From: a virus | Reading direction: 5' to 3' (one strand) | Length of the DNA stretch: 27,335 nucleotides | IMG/VR virus record: IMGVR_UViG_3300023174_000550 | Span: 1-27,335 of that record | Shown here: positions 1 through 15,216 of the stretch, in pieces | Position numbering within the stretch: the first letter of the stretch is position 1 | Layout: every line of letters begins with the position of its first letter | Notes under the pieces: model-generated | What the model was told of the DNA's origin: nothing | Database searches by the model: none | Seen by the model: only the letters and a program-made list of their open reading frames with translations | Program-made: the position numbers and the translations under genes

Positions 1-3000
1 CATTGCTTGCTGCATTTGCTGCTCTTGCATCTTGTACAGCCTGTGCTGCTGCTGCTATGTCTCCTTGTGAAAGTGCATCGGCAATGCTGATTCTTGATTT
101 GCCCTGCTGAATAGCATCTTGATTTAATTTATTAACTTGTTCAAGGGCTGCAGCCTGTTTATCATATTTCTCATTAACTGATTCTGCTTGTTTGTCAATC
201 AAAGAAAGATCATGGTTTAGTGCATTTGTTCTCTTTGTAATTGGATCTAGTTTTTCTGCATAGTCAGCATTTACTTTATCTAATGCTGCTTGGGCTTCAT
301 CAACAGCAGCCTGAGCCTTATCAACTGCAGGTTGATACTGCTGTCTCACTCTTGCTTCTTGAATTCTAAACTTTTCCATCATAACTTCATAATTTTTATT
401 AAACACATCCATCTGTGTTTTAATATTATTTATGCCAAATGGATCTCCAATGCCTTTAATTTTTTCAAGTCCAGAAGCAACATCATCAATAAGTGTTTTA
501 ATATCTTTAAAGTTTGTGCCAGCCTTTGCTGTATTCATAATTAACGTAGATAGTCCTACATCTCCCACAAGTTCTGCAGCCTTTTCTGCTGAATATCCTG
601 CTTTAATTAATTTATCATATGCACTAAGTTGTGTCTCAATATCTTTCTTTTGTTTTTCTAAACTCATTCTTGCTCCAACAGCATCTGACTCAACCTGTGC
701 TATTCTAAGTGTTTCAATTAATTCTTTCCATTTTTTAAGATCAACTTTACCAGTTGCAATACCTGCTGCAATTAATGAATCTCCTGCTAAAGTTGCTGCA
801 GATGCTGCATCAACGTTTGCTGCTCTAAGCATTTTATATGCCTTAGACTGTTGTTGCAAAGCCAGAGTCATTTCTTTTATATTTCCAAGGGCAGTTGATT
901 TTGCAGCACCGCCTGTATCAGCACCACCAGTTATTTTGCCTGCTTCCTTATTTACCAAATCCATTACGGCTTGAATGTCTGCCATTTCTTTTCTAATGTA
1001 AGCCTTAACTCTAGATGCTGCTCTTTGTGCTCCACTATCTGCGCTAGTTGATGCTGCTCTTAATGTTTCAATCATTGCTGGAGTAATGGTTGCTACACCC
1101 AGTGCTGCAGCCTTTGCAATAAGCATTTGATCTTTAACATTTTTAATACCCAATGCTGATTTTGCAAGAGGTCCTGGAAGATTTTTAATTACATTTTCCA
1201 TTAAAACTAATGCCTGTGGTTCTGGCATATCCGTTATTGTTTTTGATATTGTTTCAAAAGATTGATTAAACTGTTCTGCATTTATACTTCCATTTTCAAG
1301 TTGTCCTGAAAGACCATTCATCATTCCAGCAAATGCTTTTGAAGTTAGATTTAAATTCTTTTGTAATCCCTTAGTTAACTTTTCATTTGTTATTGTAATA
1401 ACTTTACCAGTTGAATAATTCATTGCATAAGATGTTGATTTTGAATATCCTTCTCCAAATTGTTTTCCAAATGAATTACCTAATGTTTTTGCACTCTTCT
1501 GAAGTTCTTTTTGTCCTTCTTTTGTTGCAAGATCTATTTTAGCAAAATCAAGTTTAAGGTCAGTCTTGCCAGACTCTTCTTGTAATGCTTTTAATATTGT
1601 ATCAATATTATCTTTTGCAAAACCCTTACCTTTTAATTGAATTGATAAAGACTTTAAAATAAGTTCTGCTTGTTTGTTTGTTGCACCTTTAAGGGATTGA
1701 ATATCATTCTTAAAGTCTTTTTGGAAACCTTCTGAACTTTTTAGTTCATCAACCTGTGTTCTTTTTTCTTGATTAAGAACAAGAGATGGACCAGTTCTTT
1801 CCATTCTAGTTGTTTGAGGCTTGACACCAAAGAAATCGCCAAGTGTTTTTAATTTGTTACCTGAAAGAAGTGCAGCATCTCCAAGTCCTTCAATTGCAAG
1901 ACGTGATTTTTCTTGCTGACTCTTTATAAGTTTAAATCCTAAATATAATCCTGTAAGAACAGTAGTTGCTATTCCAATTGGTCCAAGGAATTTTGTAATC
2001 CCAAGTCCAAGTCTAGCAAGACTTCCCATAAGACCAGATTTTCCTACAAGTCCTGGCATAGAGGCAATTCCTCCTCCACCCTTTGCCATCTTCATTGCTG
2101 TTGATGCAGTTTCTAATCTTCCTACAGTTAAATTAAGAAATGCTTGCTTAGTCATTAATTGAGTAACTGACATTAATCCAAATAGTATTCCTGAATACTT
2201 CATTATTTGGTTTGAAAGTTCGCCTAGTTTTCCACCTGACATAGATCCCATTGATGCAAGTGTAGTTAATCCAAATGATGCGCCCATTATTTTACTATTA
2301 AGGCTTGTAAGATTTGTGGTTGTCTTCTTTACTTCAGTACTTTCACTAACATTTTTTACTTCAGTACTTCCACCAACATTTCCAACCATACCGCCAGCAA
2401 TTATTGGCGCAGCGACACCACCACGTCTAGCAATATTTCTCTTATTACGGGCTATTGATTTTTGAGTAGCAGTATCATATGCAAGCATGTCGTCTCTGCC
2501 ATCTTGTGCTGCAAGTCTATGTGGACTACTTCTGTCACGACTTTTAGCATATGGGTCTTCTAATTTAACAGTTTTTGTTCCTTCTTCATAAGCAAGCATT
2601 GAATCAACGCCAGCCTTTTTCATTACTACCTTTCCTTCTTTAAAAGTTTCTCCAGATCTGATGCGATCCATTAACATTCTTTCTGCTGCAGAACCTTCTC
2701 CTGCCTTTTTTCTAAGATGTGGTTCAACGTATGTTGGGGTTGCTACTGATTCTGGAATATGTGCAAACTGATATCCGCCAGGGTAATCTGGTGATGGAGG
2801 CAGTCCTCGCATCTGAAGTTCTTTTTGAAAAGTCCTTTGAATTTGTGGTTTAAACGTTTCTCCAGATCTTTCTGTTGCAGCACGTTTTACATAAATATCT
2901 CCTAGTTCATTTGTAGCAAGTTCAATTCTTTGTAAATTCTTTTGTGTTAAATCACTTTCAAGAGGCTTAAGTAATTTTCTTGTTGCAACAGACATACTAG

Positions 3001-5554
3001 CAAATTCATCTGCAGTAATTTTTCCAGATAGTTGTAGATTTTCAAGATGCTTTATAATAAGTGGATATTGTGATTCTCCAACTTCTGAAATGTTTTTAGT
3101 ACCATCTGTTACTCCACCTTTAAAGATATCAAAAATATTATCTAAAACTGGAGTTAGGTTAGTTCCAAATTTTTCATAATTTCTTTGTGTTACTTTTATA
3201 TCTTGTTCCATCATCATTGCTGTTTTTATTGATGCTGCAAAAGATGCTCTTGCTTCTTCATTTAACTTTAACCATTCAAGATCCATTCCAGGACCTGCTG
3301 CATTATTTCCTGGTGCCATCATTGCAACTGGAGAATATCTTCTTGATGGGAAACTTCCACCTAATACAGTTCCTATAGTTTCTACTTTTGCCTTTTTACT
3401 TGTAGCGTACCCAGGAATATTATCAGCAATAATGCTATTAATTAAACCACCATATTTTTTAGTTTGCTTTGCAGAAATTATTGATTCACCATTTGACACC
3501 ATTGCTGGAATTGAGTCTGATGTTCCAGTTCCTGGCCCTGAAATTATTCCACCCTCTGCAAATTTCTTTACTGCTGTAGGAGCAATCATTCCAGGATTAG
3601 CAACTCTAAATGCGTTGGCTGCTACAGTGGCACGTGAATATGCACTTCTTAGACTATTAACTGCTCCTGCTTCTAAATTAAATGTTTGAACTAATTTTGC
3701 ATGAGACTGATCAAGAGAGTGTGCTGCTGCTGCAGCATCAAGTTGTTCTGTTGTTAAATATTGAGTTTGTTGTCCTAGTTCTACTGAGCCACCAGTTAAT
3801 CTTTGGTATCCTGCACGTAAAGTTGCAAATAATTTAACTCCATTTGCAAAAGCATTCATAAGCAAACCAAAAGTCATAAGAACTACTGGACCTAAGCCAC
3901 CAACTACTGCAACAATAATTCCAATTGCTTTTTTAGCACCATCTGAAAGATTATTAAATTTATCTAATAATCCACCAAGTGATTCAAGAACTGGTGTAAA
4001 TATTTTCATAAACAATTCACCGACAGGAGCAAGAGATGCTTTTAGTTTCTCAATTGCTGCTTTAAATTTTGTTAGCGCTGATGCACCTTGTATTCCTAAT
4101 TCTTTATCTGTTATGCTTGCAAGATCTGATGCTGACATTCCCATAAGATCTAATACACGAGAAGCCTGACTTCCTTCTTTATTAATATTATCAAACAAAG
4201 TTGACATACGAGCAAATTGAAACTTTCCAAACATTTGCTCAATTGCTCTAGCACGAGTTAGTGGATCAAGTGTATCTAATGCTGCACCTACATCAAGTAC
4301 TGTTTGTTTTAGATTGCCCTTATCTTTTTCAACAATTCCTGCAATATCAATGCCAAGACCTTTTAGCATTTCTTTTGCTTTTGTACTTGGATTAATTAAA
4401 GATGCAAGTCCAGATTTAAGTGCGTTGGCACCCTCTGCTGCATTTACTCCACCTTCTTTCATTGCTGTCATAAAGAATGAAAGATCTTTAACATCTCCAC
4501 CAAGTTGCTGAATAATAGGTGCTACTTTTGGAATTGCTGTTGTAATATCATCAAGAGATACTACAGTTTGGTTTTCTACCGCATTTAAAAAGTCAATAGT
4601 TCCTGCTAATTTATCAGCGCCAATGCCAAATGCACTTTGAAGAGAAATTGTAGTTTGTAGTGCTTGCTGCTGATCAATTTGGCCTAATACAGATAGTTTA
4701 GTTGCTTGAGTTGTCTGTGCAACTAAGTCTGCATTTTTAAAACCTGCTGCAGCAGCGTCTGCTGATAAGGCAATAGTATCTTTTACTGCTACTCCATATT
4801 TTGTATAAGCATCTGCAATAGACTTAACTTGAGTAAGCATGGTGTCAGTTTCTTGCTGACTTGTTCCTAAATCTCCATAAACTCTCTTAAATTTAATAGC
4901 AGCAGATTCAATATCTTGAAAAGCCTTAGTTGCAGATGATCCAAAAGCAACGAGTGGAATTGTAAAACCAACCATAAGTTGGCGACCAGCCCACTGTGTA
5001 TTTTTACCAAAGTTAAGAAGTTGTGTTGATCCTTGTTTAAGTAACTGATTAAAGATTGCTTGCTTTTGTGCTGCAATCTGTAACTTAGTTGATACACTGC
5101 TCATGTCTAGAGATGCAGGCATGATTGACATAGCCCTCATAGCACCAGTTGTATCACGACCCATTTTAATATATTGGGTTTGAAGTCTCTTTACTCTTTC
5201 TTCTGCTACCTTACCAATTGTATTAAATTCATTGGTAAATAATCTTCCAAAAGTTTTTGATGCTCCCCCTGCATAACGGAAATACTCACGCATAGAAAGT
5301 TTATTATTTTCAAGTGCGTGAGTAAATGACTCCGTTGATGTCTTAATGACACCCATCTGTGCTATAAAGTTACCTGTTGCATTAACAGAATTTAAAAGAT
5401 TTGTTTGTAAATTCTTTTGTGCAATGGCTGCACTTTCACTAGTCCTAGATATAGATGTATGGAATTGTGAAAGTTGGCGTTGTAGATTTTTGAGTTCCGC
5501 TAATGCTTGGGCCGTGTCAAAATTGACCCCTATGTTAGCATTAATATCACTCAT
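1..5554 (-). CDS. Tail tape measure protein (3' end beyond window)
   Basis: The frame is open from ATG at 5554 to the left edge, giving 1851 residues with no stop, so the true protein is longer. Tape measure proteins set tail length and are packed inside the tail tube. Residues about 150-480 read like the TP901-type tape measure domain, including FGIGADKLAGTIDFLNAVEN followed by a KEGG..AAEGANALKSGL stretch. A hydrophobic GIIVAVVGGLGPVVLMTFGLL segment follows near residue 540. Near residue 667 is the loop GPGTGTSDSIPAM, common in tape measures. Further hydrophobic stretches lie near residues 1070-1210, and Ala/Gln-rich helical sequence fills the visible end. The start is fixed by AGAGGTG seven bases upstream. 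An ATG four bases further upstream hits a stop at once. It follows the chaperone gene by 26 bases, the normal tail gene order. At roughly 1.5 angstroms per residue the tail would exceed 270 nm (inference). Confidence 0.95.
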   Translation of the reverse strand, partial: MSDINANIGVNFDTAQALAELKNLQRQLSQFHTSISRTSESAAIAQKNLQTNLLNSVNATGNFIAQMGVIKTSTESFTHALENNKLSMREYFRYAGGASKTFGRLFTNEFNTIGKVAEERVKRLQTQYIKMGRDTTGAMRAMSIMPASLDMSSVSTKLQIAAQKQAIFNQLLKQGSTQLLNFGKNTQWAGRQLMVGFTIPLVAFGSSATKAFQDIESAAIKFKRVYGDLGTSQQETDTMLTQVKSIADAYTKYGVAVKDTIALSADAAAAGFKNADLVAQTTQATKLSVLGQIDQQQALQTTISLQSAFGIGADKLAGTIDFLNAVENQTVVSLDDITTAIPKVAPIIQQLGGDVKDLSFFMTAMKEGGVNAAEGANALKSGLASLINPSTKAKEMLKGLGIDIAGIVEKDKGNLKQTVLDVGAALDTLDPLTRARAIEQMFGKFQFARMSTLFDNINKEGSQASRVLDLMGMSASDLASITDKELGIQGASALTKFKAAIEKLKASLAPVGELFMKIFTPVLESLGGLLDKFNNLSDGAKKAIGIIVAVVGGLGPVVLMTFGLLMNAFANGVKLFATLRAGYQRLTGGSVELGQQTQYLTTEQLDAAAAAHSLDQSHAKLVQTFNLEAGAVNSLRSAYSRATVAANAFRVANPGMIAPTAVKKFAEGGIISGPGTGTSDSIPAMVSNGESIISAKQTKKYGGLINSIIADNIPGYATSKKAKVETIGTVLGGSFPSRRYSPVAMMAPGNNAAGPGMDLEWLKLNEEARASFAASIKTAMMMEQDIKVTQRNYEKFGTNLTPVLDNIFDIFKGGVTDGTKNISEVGESQYPLIIKHLENLQLSGKITADEFASMSVATRKLLKPLESDLTQKNLQRIELATNELGDIYVKRAATERSGETFKPQIQRTFQKELQMRGLPPSPDYPGGYQFAHIPESVATPTYVEPHLRKKAGEGSAAERMLMDRIRSGETFKEGKVVMKKAGVDSMLAYEEGTKTVKLEDPYAKSRDRSSPHRLAAQDGRDDMLAYDTATQKSIARNKRNIARRGGVAAPIIAGGMVGNVGGSTEVKNVSESTEVKKTTTNLTSLNSKIMGASFGLTTLASMGSMSGGKLGELSNQIMKYSGILFGLMSVTQLMTKQAFLNLTVGRLETASTAMKMAKGGGGIASMPGLVGKSGLMGSLARLGLGITKFLGPIGIATTVLTGLYLGFKLIKSQQEKSRLAIEGLGDAALLSGNKLKTLGDFFGVKPQTTRMERTGPSLVLNQEKRTQVDELKSSEGFQKDFKNDIQSLKGATNKQAELILKSLSIQLKGKGFAKDNIDTILKALQEESGKTDLKLDFAKIDLATKEGQKELQKSAKTLGNSFGKQFGEGYSKSTSYAMNYSTGKVITITNEKLTKGLQKNLNLTSKAFAGMMNGLSGQLENGSINAEQFNQSFETISKTITDMPEPQALVLMENVIKNLPGPLAKSALGIKNVKDQMLIAKAAALGVATITPAMIETLRAASTSADSGAQRAASRVKAYIRKEMADIQAVMDLVNKEAGKITGGADTGGAAKSTALGNIKEMTLALQQQSKAYKMLRAANVDAASAATLAGDSLIAAGIATGKVDLKKWKELIETLRIAQVESDAVGARMSLEKQKKDIETQLSAYDKLIKAGYSAEKAAELVGDVGLSTLIMNTAKAGTNFKDIKTLIDDVASGLEKIKGIGDPFGINNIKTQMDVFNKNYEVMMEKFRIQEARVRQQYQPAVDKAQAAVDEAQAALDKVNADYAEKLDPITKRTNALNHDLSLIDKQAESVNEKYDKQAAALEQVNKLNQDAIQQGKSRISIADALSQGDIAAAAQAVQDARAANAASN
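2331..2384 (-). repeat. 27-bp tandem duplication inside tape measure gene
   Basis: Two adjacent 27-base copies (2331-2357 and 2358-2384) begin with the same 12 bases, ACTTCAGTACTT, and differ at only a few positions. On the protein they give STEVKNVSE followed by STEVKK in a polar linker near residue 1065. The reading frame is preserved, so this looks like a small in-frame linker expansion. Confidence 0.7.
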
Positions 5555-5580: not shown

Positions 5581-5895
5581 TTAAATACTTAGTTGACCAG
5601 ATGCATCAAGGTTTGTACCAGATGCTGCTTCAATAATTTGGTAAACTGTTGGAAGATCAATATTATCTTCAAGAACTTTAATATCCAACGCTAGTTCTGG
5701 CTTGTACTGCTTCATTGCAATCTGAACACACTCAAGAAGAATGGTCATAGACTTATCATTGTCATCTGCTACTGCTTCAATACCCTCAAACTTCTTTGTA
5801 AATTCACGAAGAAGAGAGATTTTTAGTGGACGCACTTCTACAAGTGTTCCATCAATAAGTGATACTTTTTTTGGCTCGTATACTGTTGTTGCCAT
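5581..5895 (-). CDS. Tail assembly chaperone, short (G-like) form
   Basis: This is a 104-aa protein just upstream of the tape measure gene, the position of lambda gpG and its equivalents, which bind the tape measure during tail assembly. Its first 97 residues align with the first 96 residues of the preceding 238-aa gene. Shared features are MAT at the start, a PL.I...R block, an MKQY.P motif (residue 61), and a DL.T.Y.I segment near 80. Roughly a third of positions are identical. There is no T-like extension in any frame before the tape measure start, so it is not the first half of a frameshifted pair. The start has a strong AGGAGGG ribosome binding site. An extended -10 box (5923-5931) would give it its own transcript. 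Function rests on position plus paralogy; confidence in the role is good rather than absolute. Confidence 0.82.
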   Translation of the reverse strand: MATTVYEPKKVSLIDGTLVEVRPLKISLLREFTKKFEGIEAVADDNDKSMTILLECVQIAMKQYKPELALDIKVLEDNIDLPTVYQIIEAASGTNLDASGQLSI

Positions 5896-5922
5896 TTTTA
5901 CCCTCCTAATTAGGTTAAGTCA

Positions 5923-5931
5923 ATTATAGCA
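5923..5931 (-). promoter_or_regulatory. Extended -10 promoter for short chaperone (candidate)
   Basis: The minus strand reads TGCTATAAT, an exact extended -10 element, overlapping the stop of the upstream gene. I see no -35 match. The wider string TATGCTATAATT also occurs in the consensus promoter at 21590. Predicted transcription start is near 5916, leaving a leader of about 20 nt that contains AGGAGGG. Confidence 0.5.
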
Positions 5932-6640
5932 TAACAGCAGGGTCTCGCATGTCTTCATAATCTAAGCCCATGCCAATTCCAAAACCTACCTTTGCTGCAT
6001 TTTGTCCTTGCAGTGCAAGGATATCATTGCTATCACTTGTTGCTCCACCGCTAAATACCCTAGCCTTCATGTCTTCCCATTCTTTTTGACCCTTACTTTG
6101 ACCAGTTTCTTCATCTAAATTTATACCCTGCATCGCTGCAAGAAACTTTTTTTCTTGGTAGTCTAATTCTCTGCGACTAGAAATTGTTGTTATTAATTCT
6201 GGCATTGATATAGATTTTTCTAATTCATCATAGTTTTTCCAAATGCCTAATAAAAATATTTCTGTTTCAAGTTTTACTAAATCTAAAGTTTCCCAACTGG
6301 AGTCTTCTTTAGAAGATGTTGCTTTTTCTTTAATAGTACTATCTTCTTTTTTATTTAATTTAATCCCCATAGAATAATCTAAAATGTTATATATTGTATT
6401 AAGATCAAAATTATCTAAAACATCTTCAAGTGTGTTAGAAAGTGGTGGATAATATTGCTTCATTGTAATTCTTACGCAATCACACAAAATATCTAAAACT
6501 TCTTCTTCTGTGCTATCTTTTCCTATATTAGAAAATAAATCCATCGCTTGTCTCATGTATTTAATAACAAGAGGTATAATCTCAATTTCTATATCATCAA
6601 CAGTTTTAACATATTCTACTTTATATATATCAGTTGCCAT
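5924..6640 (-). CDS. Tail assembly chaperone, long (GT-like) form
   Basis: This 238-aa protein has two parts. Residues 1-96 are paralogous to the downstream 104-aa chaperone. A polar linker (about 97-122, rich in K, E, S) then leads to a T-like C-terminal part. The latter contains EIFLLGIWKNYDELEKSIS, then PEL, a charged helix and KFLAAMQGINLD. This pattern is typical of the C-terminal half of phage tail chaperones normally reached by ribosomal frameshifting. Here both halves are in one frame. No Shine-Dalgarno sequence precedes the ATG. Instead TGGTAAAAT lies six bases before it, which suggests a leaderless mRNA. A run of six A followed by G (6346-6352) sits exactly at the linker; a -1 slip there would meet a TAG within three codons. 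The gene follows a terminator, so its expression is probably low relative to the short form (inference). Confidence 0.8.
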   Translation of the reverse strand: MATDIYKVEYVKTVDDIEIEIIPLVIKYMRQAMDLFSNIGKDSTEEEVLDILCDCVRITMKQYYPPLSNTLEDVLDNFDLNTIYNILDYSMGIKLNKKEDSTIKEKATSSKEDSSWETLDLVKLETEIFLLGIWKNYDELEKSISMPELITTISSRRELDYQEKKFLAAMQGINLDEETGQSKGQKEWEDMKARVFSGGATSDSNDILALQGQNAAKVGFGIGMGLDYEDMRDPAVML

Positions 6641-6646
6641 ATTTTA

Positions 6647-6655
6647 ATTTTACCA
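6647..6655 (-). promoter_or_regulatory. Extended -10 (TGGTAAAAT), leaderless-type promoter candidate
   Basis: On the minus strand TGG precedes TAAAAT (6647-6652), and exactly six bases separate the hexamer from the ATG at 6640. The expected transcription start therefore falls on the A of the start codon. No ribosome binding site is present, which fits leaderless translation. The same TATGGTAAAAT string precedes the gene starting at 19092. Confidence 0.5.
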
Positions 6656-6660
6656 TAAAA

Positions 6661-6690
6661 CAACAAAGCCCACCTCAATAAGAGATGGGC
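6661..6690 (-). terminator. Rho-independent terminator after major tail gene
   Basis: On the minus strand, GCCCATCTC and GAGGTGGGC (6690-6682 and 6676-6668) form a nine-pair stem with one G-T pair and a five-base loop, followed by the T-rich TTTGTTGTTTT. It lies 20 bases after the major tail protein stop and before the chaperone gene. Confidence 0.8.
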
Positions 6691-6709: not shown

Positions 6710-7345
6710 TTATGAAAGAATAGTCCAGGAACGATCAATGATCTTTCCGTATGATGCTGTCTCGTCATCTGGAAGTAGACGGAATGTCACTTCAAACATA
6801 GATGCTGCATCACGCTTTGCTGATACTGTTACATTGTCAATTGACAATGCACGGTATGCTGCATAGATACGCTCAATGTGGTTAGAGTCATCGCAGTCAC
6901 CTGTTCCAGGTCCTACTGCTACGATACCACGCTCTACTGGGCACTCACCAATGTCTCCTGCTCCAAGAACCATTGTTTGTCCTGCTGAGGACAACTTTGT
7001 TCCTGTTAATGCTGAAGACTTGTATGCTAGTGAAACCAATAGGTTTTCAAGAGTGGCTTCTGCAAATGCAGTCTTAAGACTGACCTGCATGCCCTGCTTG
7101 TAAAGTTTTGCAACATCAAGGATTTGATCTACTGAAACTTCACCAAAGTTTGGTGTAAAAGTTAGGTCAAGCCCGTTCATTGTGTAACCGACATTTCTGA
7201 AGTTGGCTGAATTAGACAATACTTCACGGTAAGATGTGTTTGCAGACTGTGCTGGTAGTCCACCTGAACCTAGAATGTAGTTAGCAATAAAGAATGATGC
7301 TGCACCGACGATAATGTTTTGATTATTACCTCTTGTATACGGCAT
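6710..7345 (-). CDS. Major tail (tube) protein
   Basis: This 211-aa protein is placed between a probable tail terminator and the tail chaperones, the conserved position of the tail tube subunit in siphoviruses. The sequence is soluble and beta-rich, with no signal peptide or membrane segment. It starts MPYTRGNNQNIIVGAASFFI and contains a DLTFTPNFGEVSVDQ stretch, followed by a helix and further beta-rich sequence such as VTVSAKRDAASMFEVTFRLL near the end, plausible for a tube fold. The start has a good AGAGGTG site seven bases upstream. A strong terminator directly follows the gene, as expected for a protein needed in many copies. Family assignment rests on position and general character, as I do not recognise a diagnostic motif. 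Confidence 0.75.
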   Translation of the reverse strand: MPYTRGNNQNIIVGAASFFIANYILGSGGLPAQSANTSYREVLSNSANFRNVGYTMNGLDLTFTPNFGEVSVDQILDVAKLYKQGMQVSLKTAFAEATLENLLVSLAYKSSALTGTKLSSAGQTMVLGAGDIGECPVERGIVAVGPGTGDCDDSNHIERIYAAYRALSIDNVTVSAKRDAASMFEVTFRLLPDDETASYGKIIDRSWTILS

Positions 7346-11800: not shown

Positions 11801-12379
11801 TTAGTTAAATAGGTCGGATGATTTGAGGAAACGTCCGCCCCATAGGGATTTTTGAGTTGGCATTTCTGCAAACTCCTGCACGATCTCGCCTAGATCGCCA
11901 GACTTGCGGAAAGCGGTATCTTGCTCTACGGCATCTACTCTCTTTCCAAACTCATCTACTCCACCCTTGATATTTGAAACTTCATTAGTTACTGATGTAA
12001 CTTGTGCTGTAACATTATCAAGTGATTTCTTTAATTCAGCAACTACGTCGCTGATTGATTTAACTGTTGAAGTTAAATCTCCAAAGGCATTAGCAAGAGA
12101 TTCTTTTATCTCTGTAACGGCAGTGGCGACTGCCTCATCAGACTTTTTTGCATCAACGATATCTGGATTGATATCTGCTTCTGAAGCATTTGCTGCTTCG
12201 TCTACTGCTTCAGGAGTATGAGCATCTTCTGCTACATCTTCCTCAAGTGTTGGTGCTTCTACTGCTGCTTCTGATGTTGTCTCTGGAGCATCTTCAACGA
12301 CTGAATCTGCGCCGTCTGTTACACCAAGAGTTGTTGTTTCAACTGTTGCATCAGCGACTGGGATTGTATTTTCTGTCAT
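11801..12379 (-). CDS. Internal in-frame scaffold product (predicted, 192 aa)
   Basis: An ATG at 12379 is in frame with the protease gene (codon 255) and is preceded by AAAGGAGG at 12388-12395, eight bases away. That is a stronger site than most true starts here. The product would contain only the acidic region, the coiled coil and the capsid-binding tail, with no protease domain. Nested scaffold genes of this type are known in lambda (C and Nu3) and herpesviruses (UL26 and UL26.5). The prediction rests on sequence signals only. Confidence 0.55.
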   Translation of the reverse strand: MTENTIPVADATVETTTLGVTDGADSVVEDAPETTSEAAVEAPTLEEDVAEDAHTPEAVDEAANASEADINPDIVDAKKSDEAVATAVTEIKESLANAFGDLTSTVKSISDVVAELKKSLDNVTAQVTSVTNEVSNIKGGVDEFGKRVDAVEQDTAFRKSGDLGEIVQEFAEMPTQKSLWGGRFLKSSDLFN

Positions 12380-13141
12380 TGTATTTTCCTCCTTTGTCAT
12401 CTTAATTGTACTAATGCCTTTTGCACTATCAACTAAGAATTTTATCATTTCTGCTTTTTCATTGTCACTTTTTTCAACAAAACCTATGTTTTTCATTTGT
12501 GCACCATCAACTGGACTTACCTCTGAATCATTTTCAGATAAAGAAACAATTCCATTTGTTGAGTCCCAAAATACATTTTCAACTACAACTTCTGAAGAAG
12601 ATCCAGAAACTGTTGTTTGTCCATCTGCATTTTTTTGTACTGACAAAATGTTTGCAAGTTGATTTGCTGGTGAGTCAACTAAAGACAGTTCAAAAAGGTC
12701 ATAGTCTTTAATAATGCGAATTGCTTTTTGTGTTGTTTCGTCAATTGCATCATCCCATTTGTGGATATTTCCGCCAATTGAAAAACTTGAAAGGGTTCCA
12801 TCAAGAACTTTTTCCCAAGTATCCTGTGCGCCCTTTGAAACATATGCTGAAACATATACTCCATTATAAAATTTCTTTGTAGCAGGATCAAAATAGCGAT
12901 CTTGCTTAAATGATACTAATTTACCTACTGCTAATGGTTGATGCATTTCACGGATATTACCCTTGAATTTTTCAAATGCAGCAACGCTTGCTTCCTGTGT
13001 AACAATATCATCTTGCTTATCTAGGTTGTCTAAAGTTGCAAAACCAGACACAATTCTGCGCTCTGCGTCTACCTTAGCAAAAGGCATTGAGAGACGAACG
13101 TTTGTTCCTTCAGTTGTCCAATGGGCTTTATTGATATTCAT
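11801..13141 (-). CDS. Prohead protease fused to scaffold
   Basis: This 446-aa protein has an N-terminal HK97/herpesvirus-assemblin type serine protease domain (about 10-170). Visible elements are the strand RRIVSGFATLDNLDKQDDIV, the putative catalytic His67 in EMHQPL, the putative nucleophile Ser121 within SSFSIGG, and ELSLVDSPANQLA (151-163). The C-terminal part is a scaffold: an acidic, alanine-rich stretch (about 255-345), a long coiled coil (about 350-410), and a terminal SLWGGRFLKSSDLFN tail of the sort that binds capsid protein. The start has AGGAGA six bases upstream. Inside the gene an AAAGGAGG site eight bases before Met255 would allow a separate scaffold. It sits between portal and capsid genes, the standard order. 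Confidence 0.9.
   Translation of the reverse strand: MNINKAHWTTEGTNVRLSMPFAKVDAERRIVSGFATLDNLDKQDDIVTQEASVAAFEKFKGNIREMHQPLAVGKLVSFKQDRYFDPATKKFYNGVYVSAYVSKGAQDTWEKVLDGTLSSFSIGGNIHKWDDAIDETTQKAIRIIKDYDLFELSLVDSPANQLANILSVQKNADGQTTVSGSSSEVVVENVFWDSTNGIVSLSENDSEVSPVDGAQMKNIGFVEKSDNEKAEMIKFLVDSAKGISTIKMTKEENTMTENTIPVADATVETTTLGVTDGADSVVEDAPETTSEAAVEAPTLEEDVAEDAHTPEAVDEAANASEADINPDIVDAKKSDEAVATAVTEIKESLANAFGDLTSTVKSISDVVAELKKSLDNVTAQVTSVTNEVSNIKGGVDEFGKRVDAVEQDTAFRKSGDLGEIVQEFAEMPTQKSLWGGRFLKSSDLFN
12388..12395 (-). promoter_or_regulatory. Internal ribosome binding site for scaffold
   Basis: The minus strand AAAGGAGG encodes part of Lys-Glu-Glu in the protease frame yet matches an ideal Shine-Dalgarno sequence with an eight-base spacer to an in-frame ATG at the exact junction of protease and scaffold parts. 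Confidence 0.6.
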
Positions 13142-13192: not shown

Positions 13193-14822
13193 ATCTTCCA
13201 GCACCCTTTGGATTTCGTCCAGCCACTGTTGCAGGGCTATCAGATGAGTTATTTGTTCTTTGGCCATCTCTTGCTCTGTTTTTTGCATTATTAGCATTGG
13301 CATCGGCTGCTGCCCTTGCATTTAACTCTAGAGGTTTATCTCCATGTGCTGCCTGTGGAAGATCCAAAATCTCACGAGCCTCATTAGGAAGCATAATTTG
13401 ATTTTTTACATATCGTTCAAGAATCTGTGATTGTGCAATTTCATCAGTTAGTGTCAACTCATTAAATTTAAGTTCAACAATGTCTGTAAATTCCTTGACA
13501 ATTTTGCTAATAAACTTTTCAATTTTTTCTTGTTCTGGGCGAGCAACCTGCTCTTTAAATGTACGATCTTGAGAAAGGGCTGCTGCAATACCTGAGTCTG
13601 CTCCACCCAATTTAGAAATTGGAACTTGATGTGCAATCAAAATATCATCACGATTTTGCTTGCGATATTCTTTAAATGAGCCATCTTGAATGCCATTTTC
13701 AATTGGTTCCATTTTAAACTCAACCTTAGAAGTATCTGAATCTCCTGGAAGTGGAATATAAAGAGTACGATGAGATTGAGATTTTAGTCCAGTCTGCAAG
13801 AACCTAAACATCTTATCTTCTGCATCTGCAGAAAGTTTTGCACCTTTAAGAGTAATAATATATCTTGGCACAGCCTTGTTTTCAAAGTAATCAATATTAT
13901 ATTGTGAAGCAAGTTGATCTCCAATAAGTGATGGCATTGCAGCAATAATATCTGGAACCCCGTAATATGTATTTAATGGTGAGTATTCTTTAAAATGAAT
14001 AATTTCATTAGGACGATTATCTGCTGTTAATGGATTTTGATTCTTAGCCCCAAAATTGCGGAAATAAACTAAGCGTGGTCCAATAATCTGAACAAAGCCA
14101 TCACGCAAACGACGTACACGCATTGTTGTAGATGGTACATGCCCAATGTATCCAATTTCTCCATTTACTTTACGACCAACCTCAAGATATCCATTTCCTG
14201 TTGCTTGAACATCTGTATAAACTTTTTCCATAATAGTTGTAAAACTATCATCTGAGTTTAAACCTTCAAGCCATTCCTTAGCATCAATCTTAAGACGCTC
14301 AATTCTTTTCCTTGCTCTTTCTGTTGCAGCATCATCTGTTGAAGAAGATAGTTTCATAAGTGTTTGAGCATTCATATCAAAGTGATAACCTAGTCCAACA
14401 ACGTTTTCTACCTTAGCATCAATTGCAGCATGATTTGCAAAAGAAGTATCGTAAAAATTAGCAAGTTCATACATATTATAAGGTGGTGTAATTACATCAA
14501 AAATTCCATAGCCATTGCGGTATACAGTTCCAGGATTAATTGTTTTTGATCCCGCACCGTCTCCAACTTGACTTGCTCTAGCGTTTGCAAGATATTGATC
14601 TGTTGGTGCAGGTTGCTGAGTCATGACTGCAGAACTATACGTGTCTACTGCTTTTGTTGCTATGCGAGATTCACGTCTTTTAAAGTTTTGTTCAAGTCCT
14701 AAAAGATCTTTTAATTTTGTCCAGTCTTGATTAAATGGATCACTTTTTTTAAAAGGATTATCTTCTTTTTCTTGAGTATTTAATGCTGCTGAAATATATT
14801 GGTATTCCATATCATCACTCAT
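13182..14822 (-). CDS. Portal protein
   Basis: This 546-aa protein reads as a phage portal of the PBSX/SPP1-like families. Residues 120-150 carry ANFYDTSFANHAAIDAKVEN followed by VVGLGYHF. Next come a helical wing (about 165-205), VYTDVQATGNGYLEVGRKV, then NEIIHFKEYSPLNTYYGVPD with the long helix IIAAMPSLIGDQLASQYNID. PISKLGGADSGIAAALSQDR lies near 420, followed by helical stem and crown sequence. The last 45 residues are Ala/Asn/Arg/Ser-rich and probably disordered. Portal dodecamers form the DNA entry vertex and bind terminase and connector. The start overlaps the preceding gene by eight bases (ATGAGTGA), with AGAGGTG upstream. It lies next to protease and capsid genes as expected; no terminase gene lies immediately upstream. 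Confidence 0.93.
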   Translation of the reverse strand: MSDDMEYQYISAALNTQEKEDNPFKKSDPFNQDWTKLKDLLGLEQNFKRRESRIATKAVDTYSSAVMTQQPAPTDQYLANARASQVGDGAGSKTINPGTVYRNGYGIFDVITPPYNMYELANFYDTSFANHAAIDAKVENVVGLGYHFDMNAQTLMKLSSSTDDAATERARKRIERLKIDAKEWLEGLNSDDSFTTIMEKVYTDVQATGNGYLEVGRKVNGEIGYIGHVPSTTMRVRRLRDGFVQIIGPRLVYFRNFGAKNQNPLTADNRPNEIIHFKEYSPLNTYYGVPDIIAAMPSLIGDQLASQYNIDYFENKAVPRYIITLKGAKLSADAEDKMFRFLQTGLKSQSHRTLYIPLPGDSDTSKVEFKMEPIENGIQDGSFKEYRKQNRDDILIAHQVPISKLGGADSGIAAALSQDRTFKEQVARPEQEKIEKFISKIVKEFTDIVELKFNELTLTDEIAQSQILERYVKNQIMLPNEAREILDLPQAAHGDKPLELNARAAADANANNAKNRARDGQRTNNSSDSPATVAGRNPKGAGRSSQ

Positions 14823-15216
14823 CTAAAACACCTCTTCCATAAGTATCAACAGTATCTTGTGCAGCCTTCCAAGCACCAAGGTCGTTCATTGAAGGAATTA
14901 ATCCTGCTTTCATTCTATCCATTTGTTCTGAATGTTCTTCTTCAGAAATTCTTGTAAGCCCTGGAACAAATACGGCAGTTCCATCTCCTGGATCTCCATA
15001 GTGCTTTGCTGCAATTTTAAGTTTATTAATTTGATTGATATCATTTTTATTGGAAGGTATGTTTAATACATTTCCTTCTCCATCAGTAAAGTAGGCTCCG
15101 TTAGCCTTCTTATATACATAAAGTCCCCAGTCATACATCTTATCAATGACTTGACGACGAACATTTCCTACAATAGGTTTACCAGTTTTTGGGTTAATTA
15201 ATCCATCCATAACCAT
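14815..15216 (-). CDS. Small head-region protein upstream of portal (unassigned)
   Basis: This 133-aa protein overlaps the portal start by eight bases, so the two are coupled. It begins with a short GLINPKTGKPIVGNVRRQVI segment, then a WGLYVYKKANGAYFTDGEGN strand-turn region, a charged helix (INQINKLKIAAKHYGDPGDG), and an acidic, helical C-terminus (RISEEEHSEQMDRMKAGLIP). I do not recognise the family. The second ATG (15210) is a plausible alternative start. No Shine-Dalgarno sequence precedes either Met. An extended -10 box ends two bases before the first ATG, which would make the second ATG the first codon of a leaderless mRNA. A role in head assembly or packaging is inferred from position alone. 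Confidence 0.75.
   Translation of the reverse strand: MVMDGLINPKTGKPIVGNVRRQVIDKMYDWGLYVYKKANGAYFTDGEGNVLNIPSNKNDINQINKLKIAAKHYGDPGDGTAVFVPGLTRISEEEHSEQMDRMKAGLIPSMNDLGAWKAAQDTVDTYGRGVLDE

Follow-up and report, generated by a model that had tools for sequence, protein, structure and literature searches.

In the G/GT class of tail assembly chaperones, the G protein binds the tape measure and the T domain binds the major tail protein, neither product is present in the virion, and the short form is made in large excess over the long form. The frameshifting that yields G and GT is widely conserved among long-tailed phages, with the exception of T4, and in lambda the 30:1 ratio of the two products is crucial (PMC5009743). 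The PRFect report describes the prevalence of such frameshifts as unknown and points to 342 SEA-PHAGES genomes in which two chaperone genes are listed without being joined, a situation presumed to reflect mostly annotation gaps (PMC10885494). Our search of the literature found no case in which G and GT are encoded as tandem paralogues; its coverage was partial, so this is weak evidence.

Here we analyze a 27-kb fragment of viral DNA, positions 1-27,335 of the IMG/VR record IMGVR_UViG_3300023174_000550 (the whole stretch of 27,335 nucleotides is hereafter called the window), in which a long and a short chaperone-like gene follow one another. The reading that best accounts for the data, and that we regard as very probably correct, is that G was duplicated once and that the two copies split into GT and G, such that G would be made in excess without recoding.

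The gene pair between the major tail and tape-measure genes

Two open reading frames, encoding proteins of 238 aa (5924..6640, minus strand) and 104 aa (5581..5895, minus strand), are present where the first-pass annotation had placed them, and the frame of the long gene is, as had been proposed, unbroken. The pair sits in the slot typical of tail chaperones, between genes for the major tail protein and the tape measure. The upstream neighbor (6710..7345, minus strand) encodes a 211-aa Ig-domain protein that matches PHROG phrog_2175 (E 3.3e-30), and the Stanwilliamsviridae gene in the equivalent slot is annotated "major tail protein." The downstream neighbor (1..5554, minus strand) is an open frame from ATGAGTGATATT that starts at 5554 and runs past the window edge, and its position matches that of the annotated tape measure protein in relatives.

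The long, GT-like protein consists of an N domain (approximately residues 1-100) joined in-frame to a T domain (approximately residues 110-238). The short, G-like protein had been described as homologous to the N-terminal half of the long one, and this is borne out: BLASTP aligns residues 1-97 with residues 1-96 at 34% identity and 59% positives (E = 3e-16), a second comparison of the two proteins returned an E of 4.4e-15, and the short gene can be regarded as a paralogue of the N domain. In profile comparison, the short protein matches phrog_10504 (E 7e-18), which is the family of the Stanwilliamsviridae G. This PHROG is matched by 57 of 57 members, some of which also match four chaperone PHROGs weakly. 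The T domain of the long protein is homologous to the T encoded in the −1 frame of Stanwilliamsviridae phages, where these proteins are annotated as tail assembly chaperones. Structure models of the two proteins are of medium confidence (pLDDT 75 and 74). The model of the long protein matches an uncultured phage tail assembly chaperone in BFVD (E 2e-4), and its matches to an Enterococcus chaperone frameshift protein and to the GT of phage N15 (prob 0.82) fall below the usual threshold. Searches of solved structures, by sequence and by fold, produced no significant match, Pfam gave only sub-threshold matches for the two window proteins, and an Rfam search of the region gave no match. Because the synteny, the homology to annotated tail assembly chaperones, the weak PHROG matches and the structural match of the long model agree, we consider the pair to be, in all probability, siphovirus tail assembly chaperones, G being the short and GT the long form.

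Gene layouts among relatives and the direction of change

Relatives of each protein were found in more than 400 IMG/VR stretches. N and T share one open frame in 160/160 first-round loci, and the only one of these without a second N gene downstream ends at a contig edge. Layouts were then read in 311 loci by means of N-domain and T-domain profile HMMs; a few of these loci are truncated by contig ends. Two arrangements account for nearly all of them: a fused N=T gene followed by N (218 loci) and an N gene whose T partner lies in the −1 frame (83 loci, plus 4 with a split N match). No intermediate layout, whether N T N or a fused gene without a second N, occurs among the 311. Four loci that appeared to be N=T only (L070, L266, L295, and L312) all stop at contig edges. 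Several loci share a contig and would be counted repeatedly, so the dereplicated set of 55 duplicated (at 80%) and 25 frameshift representatives gives the safer counts. Duplicated contigs of up to 109 kb carry exactly two N copies per genome and the 97-kb frameshifter L202 carries one; a third N-domain copy elsewhere in the genome was sought and is absent from related contigs up to 109 kb. In one duplicated locus (L033, 4690-5473), an insert of ~780 bp between the long and short genes encodes a 210-aa protein that, judged on its sequence, resembles SAM-dependent methyltransferases; the tandem layout can accommodate added DNA between its two members.

A search among related phages had been proposed. 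Among cultured phages, the Stanwilliamsviridae of Streptomyces are the nearest relatives, and the Rhodococcus Trinavirus phages are more distant. These cultured relatives have one G gene with T in the −1 frame, in the same syntenic slot. The direction of the shift is −1 in all frameshift loci, and most of them contain, in register, one of the heptamers C CCA AAT, C CCA AAC, G GGA AAC or G GGA AAA. A canonical X XXY YYZ heptamer is absent from the G/T overlap in a minority (among them Wofford, Mildred21, L301-L310, L165, and L170), where the overlaps read, for example, GAC CCG GAA CTG or GCA GAC AAT GCG. The Gilson and Faust records (L164 and L166) annotate the second chaperone as a tiny distal ORF and miss most of the −1-frame T.

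In the duplicated loci, N and T lie in one open frame throughout, an arrangement in which the long form needs no programmed −1 frameshift. The long gene could conceivably still slip at the N/T junction, in which case both genes would make G and the duplicate would top up the supply. The sequence AAT AAA AAA GAA in the window, an AAAAAAG run at codons 97-98, stands where homology would place the former slippery site, and slippage by −1 on it meets TAG within three codons. The run is, however, out of X XXY YYZ register, and frame-correct slippery heptamers, scattered in position, occur at the fused junction of 9/54 long genes, for which shuffled codons predict 13. Residual frameshifting is rejected on these counts, and we consider it very unlikely.

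The relatives' sequences also bear on how often, and in which direction, the change occurred. The N domains of the long genes fall into a single clade (SH-aLRT 98), and a tree that constrains the short N domains to a single clade beats the free tree by 44 log units, so that a single duplication is the simplest reading. The G of L207 falls inside the short clade, which we ascribe to a long-branch effect, since the fit is better when that clade is constrained to the short genes alone. In a tree built from T, the major tail protein and the N terminus of the tape measure and rooted on Trina, the duplicated phages form a single group with moderate support (88-92), deep inside the frameshifters, and the immediate sisters of this group are the single-copy frameshifters L207 and L260 (100), the latter being of the same phage type as L243. 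Because the duplicated clade is nested in this way, the direction from frameshift to duplication is the most likely one, and the sequences indicate that the frameshift was most likely replaced once, by duplication and in-frame fusion. That the unrooted T tree alone has just one split between the two states might be taken to allow the opposite polarity, with separate genes ancestral and frameshifting derived from the duplicated state. The frameshifting Trinavirus root and the two frameshifting sister lineages nevertheless make the duplicated clade the derived one, and frameshifting is reported to be widely conserved across long-tailed phages (PMC5009743), which leaves the reverse order exceedingly improbable. 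The suggestion, made from the window sequence alone, that duplication here replaced frameshifting is thus largely supported by the layouts of the relatives and the rooted tree.

A single duplication of G followed by division of roles would have proceeded as follows. The ancestor, like living relatives, would have made a little GT from a single G gene through a −1 slip at C CCA AAY or G GGA AAY. In the lineage of the window this gene would have been duplicated once. The upstream copy would have been joined in-frame to T, with loss of the slippery site and of the 5′ leader, and would have become a leaderless gene behind the old terminator, and the downstream copy would have become a dedicated G gene that retained its leadered promoter and Shine-Dalgarno site.

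Initiation signals, codon adaptation and the balance of the two products

By sequence inspection, a GC-rich, terminator-like hairpin of the intrinsic type (6655..6690, minus strand), with the sequence GCCCATCTC TTATT GAGGTGGGC and a T-rich tail, stands between the genes for the major tail protein and the long chaperone, as the first-pass annotation had recognized. Its further statement that the long gene has no ribosome binding site holds, in that there is no AGGAGG-like site, but the gene does have a signal of its own, an extended −10 box, TGGTAAAAT (6647..6655, minus strand), that ends 6 nt 5′ of the long ATG and constitutes a predicted leaderless promoter. Among dereplicated relatives, a Shine-Dalgarno site precedes 0/52 long genes and a TGnTAnnnT extended −10 box lies 5-9 nt before the ATG in 50/52. 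The view that the long gene is read by default from upstream consequently gives way to that of a conserved, predicted leaderless promoter. Frameshift G genes have a Shine-Dalgarno site in 25/25 cases and the leaderless −10 spacing in 0/25, and positional controls found essentially none of this spacing among neighboring genes.

Roughly one in five actinobacterial genes is leaderless, a state signaled by TAnnnT ~12 nt upstream (PMC3160421). In the long gene, which lacks a Shine-Dalgarno site, the TAnnnT begins 12 nt 5′ of the ATG and matches this signal, and it is on this match and its conservation that the proposed leaderless expression of the long gene rests. Boxes of the leaderless type precede 13/114 ORFs in the 105-kb relative L006 and thus appear to be a normal device of the phage. 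Within the window, extended −10 boxes are also found directly 5′ of the ATG of the head protease gene (11801-13141, minus strand; TGGTATAAT) and of a 133-aa ORF (14815-15216, minus strand; TGGTATACT), which suggests leaderless or very short-leader expression of these two genes; L006 has these boxes as well. The hosts are probably actinobacteria, because whiB is carried by 11/15 related contigs. A search of a genome collection returned one relative only, L320, which is of the frameshift type and uninformative for the host. This 110-kb sequence (CAINGU010000031.1) comes from a cyanobacterium-labeled MAG, carries a frameshift-type chaperone locus and is probably a phage contig put in the wrong bin.

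The short gene has the Shine-Dalgarno site AGGAGGG (5901..5907, minus strand; by sequence inspection) and its own extended −10 box, TGCTATAAT (5923..5931, minus strand), both located 5′ of the gene as originally reported. Across the clade, a Shine-Dalgarno site is present in 54/54 short genes and a leadered extended −10 box in 53/54. The box of the window overlaps the final codons and stop of the long gene (5923-5931, minus strand, read as ATG CTA TAA T), so that promoter and coding constraints coincide at these positions. Of the duplicated loci, 49/51 have a terminator-like hairpin ahead of the long gene and 0/51 have one between the long and short genes; in frameshift loci, a hairpin occurs at the former place in 25/25. 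With no terminator between them, the layout makes the short gene readable from both promoters and the long gene from its own only. Under the duplication model, the short gene would be transcribed from two promoters and the long gene from one, and stronger initiation together with better codons for the short gene would give more G than GT without recoding.

Codon adaptation, scored against the codons of the major tail gene, is 0.62 for the short gene, 0.47 for the long N domain and 0.48 for the long T domain in duplicated phages, and 0.59 for G and 0.49 for T in frameshifters. The short gene scores above the long one in 55/55 phages (Wilcoxon p ~1e-10). The long N domain thus does not have the adaptation that G shows in other phages, which is what one would expect of a domain produced at the level of GT only. 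These values bear on a rival in which expression is not ratio-controlled and both proteins are made at similar levels to act as a heteromer. Translation of leaderless genes can be efficient in actinobacteria, which means that leaderless initiation alone is no proof of low expression, and the long N domain evolves faster, as that of a specialized partner might. The codon difference, on the other hand, has in all 55 phages the sign that a surplus of G over GT would predict, like that of G and T in the frameshifters, and two promoters can serve the short gene against one for the long gene; we therefore think equal expression unlikely. Promoters and initiation, not recoding, most likely determine the balance between G and GT, a conclusion in which the protein ratio is predicted from these sequence features.

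The two copies have also diverged unequally. Mean pairwise identity is 68% among short proteins and 50% among the N domains of the long copy, and, compared with the G of L243, a sister lineage, the short copy is 54% identical and the long copy 37%. Within one phage, the long and short copies are only ~39% identical and fall in separate clades, which would accord with the short gene having taken another role, for example as a tail protein or as a distinct chaperone for the tape measure, with the long protein alone carrying out the G function. Yet the short copy is the better conserved and the nearer to the single G of the sister frameshifters, it retains the initiation signals and codon bias of G and adjoins the tape measure, and by these measures it is the N domain of the long copy that changed more. 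A new role for the short gene is accordingly improbable, and we retain it as the dedicated G gene. A more elaborate version of this assignment, which we put forward tentatively and rate a little below an even bet, is that the pairing of a leaderless promoter (for GT) with a nested, leadered Shine-Dalgarno promoter (for G) sets the ratio and that the N domains have specialized, the one in GT having diverged and lost its codon optimization. The chaperone would then be heteromeric, and its ratio could be tuned transcriptionally during infection.

Comparison with known chaperone loci

A clade without the frameshift beside sister lineages that retain it makes it testable whether recoding itself or the ratio alone matters. 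The locus would also be an example of an overlapping two-product gene resolved through duplication into separately controlled genes, with roles divided by the type of translation initiation, leaderless or Shine-Dalgarno.

The lambda gpG/gpGT system and the window clade share an N-terminal domain common to both proteins, an extra T on the longer one and the slot between the major tail protein and the tape measure. However, lambda uses a programmed −1 frameshift, whereas the window clade has two tandem genes with different initiation signals and no slippery site. The Stanwilliamsviridae phages (BillNye, Gilson, Wofford, Faust, Comrade, and Mildred21) have homologous N and T domains, the same synteny with an Ig-domain major tail protein, and a terminator and promoter upstream, but differ in having a single G with a Shine-Dalgarno leader and T in the −1 frame, with C CCA AAT in most. 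The more distant Rhodococcus phages NiceHouse and Trina (Trinavirus) share the homologous T domain and the gene order and produce G and T by a −1 frameshift at G GGA AAA. The closest relatives of the duplicated clade are the IMG/VR phages L207 and L243/L260, and the T of L243 has the same C-terminal extension; these phages nonetheless have one G gene with a Shine-Dalgarno leader and a −1 frameshift at G GGA AAC. In relation to the leaderless genes of actinobacteria, the difference is that the signal here occurs in a phage structural operon and on one paralogue only. Collectively, these comparisons suggest that a recoding device thought to be near-universal is replaceable by ordinary gene duplication, in a large clade of aquatic, probably actinobacterial phages, and that what is new is the presence of tandem paralogues in place of the frameshift, with the same parts and probable function as in the known systems and the ratio probably set differently.
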